The notes under the pieces are model-generated. The model saw only the letters and a program-made list of their open reading frames with translations. It searched no databases and had not been told where the DNA came from. From a virus, in IMG/VR virus record IMGVR_UViG_3300044675_001691, positions 1 through 29,960 of that record: a DNA stretch of 29,960 nt; one strand, written 5' to 3'. This document shows positions 4,832-14,643 of the stretch, in pieces. Each line of letters begins with the position of its first letter. Positions within the stretch are counted from its first letter, which is position 1. Made by a program: the position numbers and the translations under genes.

Positions 4832-5344
4832 ATGGCTTGTGCAACTCTCGAGGAGATCCTGAAGGACTGCCTCAACAACTCAGGGGGAATTTATACTCTC
4901 TTAATTAACCAACAAGATAACATCACTGGTATTACCACCGACGAAACTGGTACGAACTGGGAAGTTACTGCAATTACAAAAACTGCCCCTTACATTCCGT
5001 TAGAGTTCAAACGTAATACTGGTAGCTTTACCGAAGACGGAACTATCGACTTAATCAATGGTTCGTCTTACGTTACTCAAACTATTAACTTAATGTTTCA
5101 CCGTCGCGATCAAGAGAAAAGCCGCGCTATCAAAGTTTTGGCAGCGGGTCAACAATACTTGAACGCAGTTGTAGGTGACGCTAACGGCAACTATTGGTAT
5201 TTCCCATACTTGCAAGTTACTGCATACGGCGAAGGTTCGGGCGCAGTTCGTGCAGATGGTTCGAAATATTCACTTACGCTTGTAGCGGAAAACGAAACAT
5301 TGGCCTACGCAGTAGATCCAGCTATCGTTGCTGGCCTCGTTTAA
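4832..5344 (+). CDS. Probable major tail tube protein
   Basis: 170 residues, strand-rich. Features include NWEVTAITKTAPYIPLEFKR, GSFTEDGTIDL, INLMFHRRDQEKSRAIKVLA and GDANGNYWYFPYLQVTAYGEGSGA. The layout (central 'F.RRD..K...I..L' helix, then 'DANGNYW' strand) fits tail-tube-like proteins encoded near the head genes of Bacteroidetes siphophages. Like the capsid gene it is isolated by terminators on both sides (4781-4810 and 5371-5400) and uses high-expression codons (GGT, CGT, GCA), consistent with a protein made in many copies. The alternative is a capsid-decoration protein; I judge tail tube more likely. Confidence 0.6.
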   Translation: MACATLEEILKDCLNNSGGIYTLLINQQDNITGITTDETGTNWEVTAITKTAPYIPLEFKRNTGSFTEDGTIDLINGSSYVTQTINLMFHRRDQEKSRAIKVLAAGQQYLNAVVGDANGNYWYFPYLQVTAYGEGSGAVRADGSKYSLTLVAENETLAYAVDPAIVAGLV

Positions 5345-5370
5345 TTAGGTCCTTTTATTCGGAATACACT

Positions 5371-5400
5371 AGCCCCCTTTATAGGGGGTTTTGTGTTTTT
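5371..5400 (+). terminator. Rho-independent terminator after the tail tube gene
   Basis: AGCCCCCT (5371-5378) pairs with AGGGGGTT (5383-5390), including one G-T pair, around a four-base loop (TTAT), followed by TTGTGTTTTT. It lies immediately before the putative late promoter at 5396-5431; the last T residues of the terminator double as the TTTTTG element. Confidence 0.85.
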
Positions 5401-5431
5401 GAACGTTAAGGTTTTGAACTTTAATATAGTT
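5396..5431 (+). promoter_or_regulatory. Putative late promoter: TTTTTGAAC-N-TAATATAGTT abutting ATG
   Basis: TTTTTG (5396-5401) is followed after 20 bases by TAATATAGTT (5422-5431), directly before the ATG at 5432. It restarts transcription just after a terminator. It shares both TTTTTGAAC and the TAATATnGTT element with the 2786-2820 site. It also decides the gene start at 5432 rather than the GTG at 5393. Confidence 0.6.
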
Positions 5432-5782
5432 ATGATTTACATAGACAAAGGGGAAATAAACACGTTTGCGCTAACTCTAAGCGAGGTAACGACGTTAGTT
5501 AACCCCTACTATTTGTTCGTGTTTGAGGGTGAATATAACACCGCCGTAGAGCCTATTTTTTGGGTAGGTACAGACACTAGCAACTGGCCCGTACGTTACA
5601 ACCTTTTTACTTTAGAAGAAGGCGTAGACGTTACACTAATCAAAGGCCAATATAAATATAGCGTGTTCGAAAGTGACACGCCTATAATAGTAGACGAAAA
5701 CACGAATACAGACGAATTAAATTTAATAGAAGAAGGCCGCATGGTTGTTGCTGGCGTTGCCGTTTCTTCGATATACGACTAA
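5432..5782 (+). CDS. Small virion-region protein, unknown function
   Basis: 116 residues from ATG 5432. An in-frame GTG at 5393 would add 13 residues but would overlap the promoter, so it is rejected. The protein (MIYIDKGEINTFALTLSEV, VNPYYLFVFEGEYN, VRYNLFTLEEGVDVTLIKGQYKYSVFE) looks like a small beta sandwich, as in many phage structural or neck proteins. It begins a run of tightly packed genes leading to the portal, starting 3 bases before the portal ATG. The strand-rich protein with 'YLFVFEGEYN' and 'YKYSVFES' recalls small proteins near portals in Bacteroidetes phages, but I cannot name its role. Confidence 0.7.
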   Translation: MIYIDKGEINTFALTLSEVTTLVNPYYLFVFEGEYNTAVEPIFWVGTDTSNWPVRYNLFTLEEGVDVTLIKGQYKYSVFESDTPIIVDENTNTDELNLIEEGRMVVAGVAVSSIYD

Positions 5783-11843: not shown

Positions 11844-11986
11844 AATACCTACTTACCTACTACGTCGGCGCAAAAGCCGTGCAAAGCTGGCGGTTCTACT
11901 CTAAGGCTATGGCATACGCTGCAAAGTCCGAACTACTATTTACGGAAAATTACAACCTTGGGAAATTCAAAATAACGGAAATATGA
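11840..11986 (+). CDS. Very small basic early protein (48 aa)
   Basis: ATGA overlaps at both ends (11840 with the gene before, 11983 with the gene after) argue that this short frame is real. The protein KYLLTYYVGAKAVQSWRFYSKAM resembles a small beta hairpin followed by a helix (AYAAKSELLF) and ends NLGKFKITEI. No function recognised. Confidence 0.6.
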   Translation: MKYLLTYYVGAKAVQSWRFYSKAMAYAAKSELLFTENYNLGKFKITEI

Positions 11987-12411
11987 AAAACAAAATAGCA
12001 CTTATTCACGAACTTATAGCAGCCTACGACTTAACAAACAAGTGTAGAGATCGCGGCCTAATTTACAAACGCGCGTACCTATACAATGAACTACGAACTA
12101 GCGGCTTTAGCCTTTCGCAAATTGGCGAAATATTCGGTAAGCACCACGCTACTATAATTCACGGCCTACGAACACACGAAAACTTAATGGGTTACAACGA
12201 CGAAGACTACAAATTGGAAACTATACAACTCAAACAACAACTAGAGGGTAGCGTATTAATATTCCCAGAAGAAAGCACGGCTAAAAAACGAGACTTAAAA
12301 ACAGACATTATAGAGGCTAAGACTATCCGAGACTTCAAACGTATTCGACGACGTGTAAAGCTAGGTGTTTACGAAAAACTTTTAGCCGAAAGCAACTTAA
12401 TTAAAAGTTAA
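11983..12411 (+). CDS. DnaA domain IV-like DNA-binding protein
   Basis: 142 residues. Residues about 43-68 (SLSQIGEIFGKHHATIIHGL) closely follow the helix-turn-helix and signature helix of bacterial DnaA domain IV ('S...IG..FG..DHSTV.H'), which binds the DnaA box. There is no AAA+ ATPase domain. In a phage this could recruit or compete with the host initiator at an origin, or act as a regulator; the choice is inference. The C-terminal part is basic (DFKRIRRRVKLGVYEKLL). It is the last gene before the HNH island, and the replisome organiser and helicase follow the island. Confidence 0.75.
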   Translation: MKNKIALIHELIAAYDLTNKCRDRGLIYKRAYLYNELRTSGFSLSQIGEIFGKHHATIIHGLRTHENLMGYNDEDYKLETIQLKQQLEGSVLIFPEESTAKKRDLKTDIIEAKTIRDFKRIRRRVKLGVYEKLLAESNLIKS

Positions 12412-12448: not shown

Positions 12449-12456
12449 TATCTTTG
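12449..12456 (+). promoter_or_regulatory. -7 box (TATCTTTG) ahead of the structured RNA
   Basis: TATCTTTG is an exact TAnnTTTG match 38 bases after the stop of the preceding gene. No clear TTG stands at -33. Transcription would start near 12460, exactly where the predicted RNA hairpins begin. Confidence 0.55.
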
Positions 12457-12457
12457 T

Positions 12458-12546
12458 GTGTCCAGTGGTGCGGACTTGTAAAACATTATTTAAAGCCTCG
12501 GCCTAGTAGGGAAGCACCACCCCGAAAAGTCGAGGTTTTGTTTTTT
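12458..12546 (+). ncRNA. Putative structured RNA with loop-loop pairing upstream of the HNH gene
   Basis: GTCC (12460-12463) pairs with GGAC (12472-12475), leaving loop AGTGGTGC. A second hairpin, GGG (12509-12511) with CCC (12521-12523), exposes GCACCAC (12514-12520), which is fully complementary to GTGGTGC (12465-12471) in the first loop. AAAGCCTCG (12492-12500) pairs with CGAGGTTTT (12531-12539) and encloses the second hairpin, followed by GTTTTTT like a terminator. Promoter box, two hairpins, 7-base loop complementarity and terminator fit within 100 bases. It could be a separate small RNA or an attenuating leader for the endonuclease. I could not match it to a named RNA family. Confidence 0.5.
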
Positions 12547-13104
12547 ATGAAAAAATGTAAAGAATGTGGAATAGTAAAAGATCTTACTGAATTCCATAAA
12601 AACCCCAAAGCACATGATGGGGTTAGAACTAAATGTAAGACATGTGTTTGCCATCGGCAATCTACTTACAGAAAAAATAATCAAGAAAAAATTAGTGCTT
12701 ACTCGCGTAGCTGGTTAGAAAAAAATCCAGAATATGGTAAAATTTATTATTTAAAAAAATATGTGAAAAAAAATAAAATTGCTTTAACAGAAGAAGAACT
12801 AAAGCGAAGAAAAAAACACCATGATTTAAATTATAAGGAAAAATATCCAGAGAAACATAAAGCTAAAATGGCTGTAAATTTTGTTAAAGTTGAAAAAGGA
12901 ATTCACAAGCATCATTGGAGTTATAATAAAATAGACTATAAAAATGTCATTCTTTTACAAGAAAAAACGCATTTAACTTTACACAAGCATTTGAAATATT
13001 GTAAGGAAACATTTTATTATAAAAATACAAATGGTGAATTATTGAATACTAGAGAAAAGCATTTGGCTTATATACAACAATTATTAAAAAATAATAAGTT
13101 ATGA
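12547..13104 (+). CDS. HNH homing endonuclease with N-terminal zinc ribbon
   Basis: 185 residues from ATG 12547; the longer frame from TTG 12454 would translate the structured RNA and is rejected. An N-terminal zinc ribbon has Cys4, Cys7, Cys30 and Cys33 (CKECGIVKDLTEFHK ... KCKTC). A lysine-rich linker leads to the HNH core HKHHWSYNKIDYKNVILLQ with His122-His123, Asn133 and a later HLTLHKHLKY. 'HHWSYN' is diagnostic of free-standing endonucleases carried by Bacteroidetes phages. It would nick or cut phage DNA and promote its own spread. Composition is foreign: AAA, AAT, ATT and TTA codons dominate, while neighbours prefer CTA, ACG and CGC. Its stop overlaps the next ATG (ATGA), so insertion left the replication operon intact. 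Confidence 0.85.
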   Translation: MKKCKECGIVKDLTEFHKNPKAHDGVRTKCKTCVCHRQSTYRKNNQEKISAYSRSWLEKNPEYGKIYYLKKYVKKNKIALTEEELKRRKKHHDLNYKEKYPEKHKAKMAVNFVKVEKGIHKHHWSYNKIDYKNVILLQEKTHLTLHKHLKYCKETFYYKNTNGELLNTREKHLAYIQQLLKNNKL

Positions 13105-13712
13105 GCGGTTGGATTAAATTACACAAAACACTTAAAGACTGGGAATGGTACGACGACCACAACGCAACGCGTTTGCTAGTTCACTTACTTTTATCGGTAA
13201 ACTACGAAGACAAGGAGTGGAAAGGGCAAACAATAAAAGCGGGTTCATGCGTTACTAGTTGGGAAAACTTAGCCAAAGAAATAGGCCTTTCGGTCAAGCA
13301 AACACGCACCGCAATGGCCAAGCTTGAAGCCTCTAAAGAAGTGGCACGCCACACGACAAACAAATGGCAAGCTGTAAGCCTTGTAAAATGGTCTAAGTTG
13401 CAAGTTGAATGTGCTAATGAGGGCAAACAACAAGGCACACAAAGGGCAACAACTAAAGAATATAAAGAAATAAAGAATATATTTACGCGCCCAAGTGTTG
13501 AAGAAATTAAATCCTACTGCCAAGAAAAAAGCTTACAATTAGACGCCCAAAGCTTTATAGATTATTACGATAGTAACGGGTGGAAAGTAGGTAAAAACCA
13601 AATGAAAGACTGGAAAGCTACGGTAAGACGTTGGGCAAAGCCAAAAGAACAAGTAGAAATGATACACGACCCGCTTTACGAACAAGCTAAAAAACTAGGT
13701 TATGTTAAGTAA
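13101..13712 (+). CDS. Replisome organiser / winged-helix replication initiator
   Basis: 203 residues. The N-terminal half (SGWIKLHKTLKDWEWYDD, RLLVHLLLSVNYEDKEWKG, then SWENLAKEIGLSVKQTRTAM) is the winged-helix pattern of phage replisome organisers. The C-terminal part (FIDYYDSNGWKVGKNQMKDW, then KATVRRWAK) is the DnaD/DnaT-like motif that loads helicase. It overlaps the next gene (13702) by 11 bases, and that gene encodes the helicase-like ATPase, as in many phages. A middle stretch (residues about 105-135) is polar and probably a linker. Role: origin binding and helicase recruitment. Confidence 0.8.
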   Translation: MSGWIKLHKTLKDWEWYDDHNATRLLVHLLLSVNYEDKEWKGQTIKAGSCVTSWENLAKEIGLSVKQTRTAMAKLEASKEVARHTTNKWQAVSLVKWSKLQVECANEGKQQGTQRATTKEYKEIKNIFTRPSVEEIKSYCQEKSLQLDAQSFIDYYDSNGWKVGKNQMKDWKATVRRWAKPKEQVEMIHDPLYEQAKKLGYVK

Positions 13713-14643
13713 AGGAATACACCTAGAAAAGCTTTTCGACTATAAGAACGGAAAAATAAAACAAGGGCTAGGCATAGGCACAAAGCTAGACGAATACTTA
13801 AGATACAAGCCTAGACAACTGAATATTATTTTAGGCCATGACAACGTCGGTAAGACTTATTGGATCAATTGGTATTTTCTTACCCTTGCACTTAAACACG
13901 AATTAAAGTTTGTTATGTGGTCTGGTGAAAACCAATACTGGCAAGTTCTTCGCGACATGGTACAAATTTACGCTGGCAAACCATTTAAGCAATTAAGCGA
14001 ACGCCAAATAGCGAGATACACGGCTTACCTAGAGCAATACTTCGAATTTATAGACAACTCAAAGCTTTACAAACCTAGCGAACTTTTCGAACTATTCCGT
14101 AAGTCGGACGCCGACGCTTGTTTAATTGACCCCTATACGGGCTTAGACCGCCAAATGGGCTACGAGGGTAACTATAAGTTTTTGAACGACGCCCGCCAAT
14201 TTTGCAACGAAACTGGAAAGACTTTGTATATAAACACCCACCCGAATACGGAAAGCGGACGTAGTGGCAACATTTACCCAGATAACCATATGTGGAAAGG
14301 CCACCTTAAACCGCCAATGAAAGACCATATAGAGGGTGGTAAGGCGTTCTTAAACCGCTGCGACGACATGATAGTAGTACATAGGCTAGTAAAACACGAA
14401 ACAATGAAATACGTAACGCTAGTAACAACTGAAAAGATTAAAGACCAAGAAACGGGCGGGGCTATTACGGGCTTTGATGAATTTATTTTTTGTGAATTTA
14501 ACCACGGCTTAGGCTTTGTGATTGAAAACAAAGACGCTCTTAAAGAAATGCGACCACGCGAACAACAAACCAAACTGCAAACAAACGAAATACTAACAAC
14601 CAGCGAAAAGCTTAGACGCCTCGCTAACGAAACACCTTTTTAA
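13702..14643 (+). CDS. DnaB-like RecA-fold helicase/ATPase (no primase or N-terminal domain)
   Basis: 313 residues. Walker A is GHDNVGKT (residues 45-52), Walker B is ACLIDPY with Asp143, and TLYINTHPNTESGR serves as the sensor-like segment after it. The order fits the C-terminal ATPase domain of DnaB/RecA-type replicative helicases; the N-terminal collar domain is missing. Position after the replisome organiser supports a role in unwinding or loading at the fork. The Walker A differs from the common GxxGxGKT in having His-Asp-Asn before Val-Gly-Lys. Start at 13702 overlaps the upstream gene and has the GGTTATG context seen elsewhere here. Confidence 0.75.
   Translation: MLSKGIHLEKLFDYKNGKIKQGLGIGTKLDEYLRYKPRQLNIILGHDNVGKTYWINWYFLTLALKHELKFVMWSGENQYWQVLRDMVQIYAGKPFKQLSERQIARYTAYLEQYFEFIDNSKLYKPSELFELFRKSDADACLIDPYTGLDRQMGYEGNYKFLNDARQFCNETGKTLYINTHPNTESGRSGNIYPDNHMWKGHLKPPMKDHIEGGKAFLNRCDDMIVVHRLVKHETMKYVTLVTTEKIKDQETGGAITGFDEFIFCEFNHGLGFVIENKDALKEMRPREQQTKLQTNEILTTSEKLRRLANETPF

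Follow-up and report, generated by a model that had tools for sequence, protein, structure and literature searches.

A covarying kissing-loop RNA with a built-in putative terminator in the replication region of phages of Flavobacteriia

The window, i.e., the whole analyzed stretch of 29,960 nucleotides of the virus record IMGVR_UViG_3300044675_001691, contains on its plus strand a gene for a protein with a DnaA C-terminal-like HTH domain (11983–12411; Pfam PF08299, E = 4.5e-6, below the curated cut-off), a structured RNA element (12449–12546), a gene for an HNH/endonuclease VII-like homing endonuclease of 185 aa, probably an inserted passenger (12547–13104), a gene for a DnaD-like helicase loader, the conserved neighbor of the RNA (13101–13712; PHROG 2514/186), and a gene for a primase/helicase-like ATPase of the replication module (13702–14643; PHROG 18375/239). 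In Cellulophaga phage phi18:3, a DnaA_C gene is likewise located upstream of the RNA. The GC content of the HNH gene is 25.6%, compared with 41% for the window. Its ATG lies directly behind the U-tract of the RNA and its stop codon overlaps the start of dnaD (ATGA), an overlap through which the insertion may couple dnaD translation to that of the HNH gene.

The RNA element follows a promoter −7 box TATCTTTG (12449–12456) of the Bacteroidetes type TAnnTTTG. Hairpin P1 (12460–12475), recognized by sequence and folding and covarying in relatives, is formed by GTCC (12460–12463) and GGAC (12472–12475) and closes loop 1, AGTGGTGC, with the kissing bases GTGGTGC (12465–12471). The single-stranded spacer (12476–12491) contains, by comparison with relatives, the conserved type-B element GTAAAA.ATTATT. 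The terminator hairpin (12492–12539), detected by sequence and folding and having counterpart pairs that covary in relatives, is represented by the outer stem P2 (12492–12502 with 12529–12539; 11 pairs, two of them G-U), a loop-E/sarcin-ricin-like internal loop AGUA (12505–12508)/GAA (12524–12526), in which AGTA is invariant among type-B relatives, the 3-bp inner stem P3 (GGG, 12509–12511, with CCC, 12521–12523), and the apical loop 2 with GCACCAC (12514–12520). The U-tract TTTTGTTTTTT occupies positions 12536–12546. Complementary loop words and mutual information in relatives support a kissing helix of 7 bp between 12465–12471 and 12514–12520. A previous reading of this DNA, made from the sequence only, had listed the −7 box, P1, the matched loops, the outer stem and the T-tract, all of which are present, and had missed the 3-bp P3 and the AGUA/GAA internal loop; the promoter that it assigned to the RNA has its counterpart in the box TATCTTTG, though a −33 TTG box is either lacking or only weak. 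The folding energy of the window RNA alone is unremarkable (z −1.5 for the single copy), and the case therefore had to rest on comparison with relatives; a 4-bp hairpin with a downstream 7-base complement of its loop occurred in 0.06% of shuffles of the window RNA.

The sequence-only reading attributed no coding role to the element and recognized no named family in it, and both statements held. In the window, the frame that begins with the TTG at 12454 runs without a stop across the RNA and into the HNH gene, but this TTG is itself a part of the promoter box, and in 71 of 118 relatives all three frames are interrupted by stops. Covariance models of Rfam 15, applied to the window, 15 relatives and 10 further loci, gave no match at the gathering threshold except a tRNA, and relaxed matches (RT-14, Phe leader and others) were far below gathering. 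No description of such an RNA was found in open-access literature.

Searches anchored on the HNH gene, as previously proposed, revealed no RNA homologues upstream of 10 HNH relatives. Searches with the exact loop TCCAGTGGTGCGGA and with the promoter plus GTCC/GGAC gave chance matches only, because the loops vary, and the exact 3′ hairpin gave no match. Homologues of the next gene, encoding the DnaD-like helicase loader, do have the RNA upstream; thus, L247 contains a promoter, GGGT-GTTGCAG-ACCC, a spacer and a terminator hairpin exposing CTGCAAC, followed by dnaD with no HNH gene between. A descriptor was composed of the promoter box, a 5′ hairpin and a loop complementary to the loop inside a terminator hairpin. 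Its first scan detected dozens of members, compared with four low-scoring matches in 3218 promoter sites of the shuffled control; TAnnTTTG was required, so the box is present in these matches by construction, and L282 and L298 were found by a covariance model without the promoter requirement. Two backbone patterns added further loci to the descriptor set. The IMG/VR relatives yielded about 118 distinct RNAs; their loop words are of 39 kinds, and the paired words are always complementary. At least one descriptor match (L551:13114) is probably spurious. The covariance model gave 100 matches at E ≤ 1.3e-7.

In 98 distinct model matches, the alignment of which (the second one) was fitted to the nested stems and not to the kissing pairs, compensatory changes were found in 24 of 27 pairs and in all four helices, including 6 of the 8 pairs of the kissing helix and, as double changes, all 5 pairs of P1; pair counts in alignment A5 lean towards the nested model structure. 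Pairing holds in 96.9% of the cells of the 98 sequences, with a covariation score of 0.731, compared with 0.208 for shuffled sequences and less than 0.08 with the partners slid. Compensatory changes in all four helices were also present in an earlier alignment of 24 members. In an unsupervised mutual-information scan, the top 18 positions were all taken by pairs proposed for P1, P2, P3 or the kissing helix, and no alternative (antiterminator) pairing covaried. Accordingly, the proposal of a kissing-loop RNA closed by a terminator, which had been staked on covariation of the stems and loop pairs among homologues, is supported. The mean energy of the kissing duplex is −12 kcal/mol and that of the terminator hairpin −18. 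The unpaired bases AUA, AAAG and GA/GA are conserved. Diversifying selection on the loops was considered and rejected, the kissing helix varying no more than P1 or P3 in the relatives. By sequence and covariation, the predicted RNA follows a host-type promoter box and consists of P1 and the intrinsic-terminator hairpin P2/P3, the apical loops of which pair over 6–10 bp. That it is real and conserved and has the proposed structure is nearly certain.

Two types of the RNA were distinguished. In type A, loop 1 comprises about 14 bases and includes conserved AUA, the internal loop is UGA/GGA, and the spacer contains AAAG..AUUAUU. In type B, to which the window copy belongs, loop 1 is shorter, the spacer contains GUAAAA.AUUAUU, and the internal loop AGUA/GAA resembles loop E. 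Model R2, built from six type-B relatives with the window left out, finds the window copy at 12461–12544 (41.1 bits, E = 5.7e-8), and type-A model R1 does not report it; the proposed tie between the two types rests on synteny, architecture and the type-B relatives. A third copy of loop 1 (TGTTGCAG, AGGCAG or GTGCAG), tracking the loop sequence, is located directly before the dnaD ATG in type-B L247, L259, L270 and L382. In L263, which has no matching third copy, the RNA looks swapped in. In L553, 7 of 8 bases of loop 1 are copied before the downstream start codon. Over the 118 RNAs, loop 1 matches the stretch preceding the next start codon to the same extent as the control, only type B and L553 having the copy, which suggests that the third copy before the dnaD start is a feature of type B and not a general one. 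A search for the loop words elsewhere in the phages, as targets in trans, showed no clear enrichment.

The RNA occurs in many viruses of Flavobacteriia. It was found in three isolated phages: phi18:3, Flavobacterium phage elemoE_6-9C and Tenacibaculum phage Gundel_1. Most IMG/VR virus records, which were screened whole, contain one copy; several carry two, and in L546, L494 and L292 the two copies of one genome have different loop words. In a search for prophage copies under strict filters, 2 matches, one of them (L420) weak, were found in 397 cellular genomes of one Flavobacterium-anchored family sample and none in 395 of a Sphingobacterium-anchored phylum sample, a rarity expected for mostly lytic phages.

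The genomic context places the RNA in the early replication module, with DnaD-like helicase loaders or other initiators encoded downstream of it. A DnaD-like gene lies no more than 2.5 kb downstream in 77 of 118 RNAs, and other replication initiation proteins are encoded behind the RNA in L419 and L422/elemoE; some other copies precede proteins of unknown function or with a weak DnaD-like match. In Gundel_1 (L421, 3001–3853), the RNA precedes not a replication gene but one for an AntA/KilAC antirepressor, followed by an HNH gene, an arrangement reminiscent of the control of antirepressors by C4 RNA. The first ORF starts 3–28 nt past the terminator in 114 of 118 cases, mostly at 20–24 nt (about 22), and TAnnTTTG is present between the terminator and this ORF in only four of 118. 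Given this short spacing to the start codon and the lack of a promoter between, the downstream genes would need read-through.

The window HNH gene is, judging from the genomic comparison, a late insertion into a slot behind the terminator, a passenger in a hot spot. HNH is absent from the corresponding place in relatives L247, L250, L259 and L270. A homing endonuclease is encoded directly behind the RNA in eight of 118 cases, and these enzymes are unrelated, namely, EndoVII-like HNH, NUMOD4-type HNH and GIY-YIG. L546 (5277–5838) and L568 (reverse strand, RNA from 5085, HNH 5187–5729) each have, near ninG, a NUMOD4-type HNH gene preceded by a second RNA, which is of type B; this pair lies on opposite sides of ninG in the two genomes, and a type-A RNA is located elsewhere in each. 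Occasional joint travel of type-B RNA and HNH near ninG is possible. The earlier suggestion that the RNA controls the homing endonuclease or travels with it thus fails as a specific tie, in view of the 10 HNH relatives without the RNA, the eight of 118 copies followed by a homing endonuclease and the unrelated enzymes, and survives only as such occasional joint travel.

With about even confidence, we regard the element as a conserved phage RNA of about 85–105 bases, a self-terminating leader or small RNA, the terminator of which gates read-through into replication genes. We infer that it is transcribed, terminated and read through. Its synthesis would yield a small RNA that terminates itself, and expression of the downstream genes would depend entirely on polymerases passing the terminator. 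The terminator cap would be poor on its own, with a loop of 6–10 bases, a P3 of 3–4 bp and an internal loop, and efficient closure would be expected only when loop 1 kisses loop 2, the duplex adding about −12 kcal/mol; kissing would thereby set terminator closure and how often the replication operon is read. The effect could have either sign, favoring read-through, as in the HMP-PP riboswitch, or termination, as in plasmid attenuators. Kissing may be broken or favored by another copy of the RNA or by a factor, either a protein or a small molecule, located at the conserved unpaired bases; the conservation of these bases favors a bound factor, and a classical switch is unsupported, because no alternative pairing covaries. 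The two copies in several records, the Gundel_1 copy before an antirepressor and the weak −33 box are points against gating.

It is possible, with rather less confidence, that the RNA is a trans-acting phage small RNA, the terminator of which just ends its gene and the kissing of which provides a stable compact fold; the unpaired bases would then bind a host or phage factor, and the location would reflect early transcription only. The single conserved fold, which includes the terminator and has no alternative, the promoter box of its own, the conserved single-stranded bases and the diversity of downstream genes agree with this, but the constant spacing of about 22 nt to the next start codon with no promoter between argues for a role in cis, as does the recurrent link to replication modules. 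Control by RNA–RNA pairing in trans, in the style of plasmid copy control, is unlikely. In such a scheme, a released copy would use loop 2 or loop 1 to pair with a nascent RNA of its own type, and the RNA level, set by genome number or a resident phage, would thereby feed back on the replication genes, with the loop sequence as specificity. Such control would agree with the 39 loop words, all self-complementary, the different words of two RNAs in one genome, the start-codon copies of loop 1 in three type-B lineages (GTTGCAG, AGGCAG and GTGCAG) and, over 7/8 bases, in L553, and internal loops like those of kissing regulators (PMC4878617); against it, the kissing helix shows no extra diversification relative to P1 and P3, the loop words are not clearly enriched elsewhere, and almost all type-A RNAs lack the start-codon copy, which in L263 is mismatched. 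A more speculative and rather improbable version is a self-complementary RNA switch, in which released and nascent copies would compete for loop pairing, the phage would count its own genomes or sense kin phage, terminator closure would shut or open the replication operon, and the loop would serve as an interchangeable specificity key.

The RNA as a part of the HNH mobile unit or a controller of the HNH gene is very improbable and, as a general role, already refuted, most RNAs having no homing endonuclease behind them, HNH relatives lacking the RNA and the endonucleases being unrelated, even if the HNH ATG abuts the terminator in the window, L546 and L498, RNA and HNH occur on either side of ninG, and cases are known in which structure silences the translation of a homing endonuclease (PMC3014915). 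Hardly credible is an element acting at the DNA level, in which inverted repeats would serve a protein as sites within an origin or operator: the loops do form inverted repeats near replication genes and type B has an extra direct copy, but the repeats coincide exactly with loops of hairpins that covary, P2 contains G-U pairs, and the U-tract is present on one strand only.

Among known systems, the HMP-PP (thiS motif) riboswitch, a terminator-embedded aptamer in which a pseudoknot within the terminator promotes read-through (PMC6478431), similarly combines a conserved structure and a pseudoknot with the intrinsic terminator before a gene, and conserved unpaired bases together with a pseudoknot within the terminator were found here upstream of a gene. 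In the riboswitch, the pseudoknot competes with the terminator, whereas no competing fold covaries in this RNA, and its predicted pseudoknot is a loop–loop kiss with a separate 5′ hairpin. Plasmid attenuators of pT181 and pIP501, in which the kissing event favors termination, likewise place kissing hairpins and an intrinsic terminator ahead of a replication initiator gene (PMC4878617), but they employ a separate antisense RNA and an antiterminator, whereas both complementary loops are in one RNA here and alternative pairs of the pT181 antiterminator type do not covary. C4 antisense RNA of P1/P7 (RF01695; PMC2864571) is also a structured phage RNA, and the Gundel_1 copy also precedes an antirepressor; in contrast to C4, there is no Rfam match and no consistent complementarity to the downstream start region. 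The T4 gene 32 leader (PMC3014915) likewise forms a pseudoknot ahead of a replication gene, the start region of which is A/U-rich, but it has neither a terminator nor kissing hairpins, and this RNA is predicted to have both; autoregulation by the downstream gene, in contrast to T4 gene 32, is unlikely here, because that gene varies. Similar to HEARO/IscB omega RNA, the structured RNA of the window is located upstream of an HNH gene, but Rfam HEARO was not matched, the protein is an EndoVII-like HNH of 185 aa and not one with RuvC plus HNH, and the RNA occurs without an HNH protein.

This well-supported family, absent from Rfam, is an addition to the RNAs of phages of Flavobacteriia. With a compact RNA and cultured isolates, it is testable whether loop–loop pairing in a terminator sets the output of a replication machinery, and the 39 natural matched loop pairs are ready candidates for orthogonal parts. 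The RNA also appears to mark a reusable cargo slot for homing endonucleases and small unknown phage genes. In the slot (window 12547–13100 and relatives), more than 30 unrelated first ORFs are located about 22 nt past the terminator, including unknowns of 57–97 aa, HNH and GIY-YIG. DnaD, too, can occupy the first position. In the genome of Sphingobacterium paludis (L330, 3820–4000), a small HNH-like gene precedes a dnaD-like gene directly, without the RNA. PHROGs gave little or no match for the small slot ORFs that were tested, which are candidates for early host-takeover or anti-defence genes.
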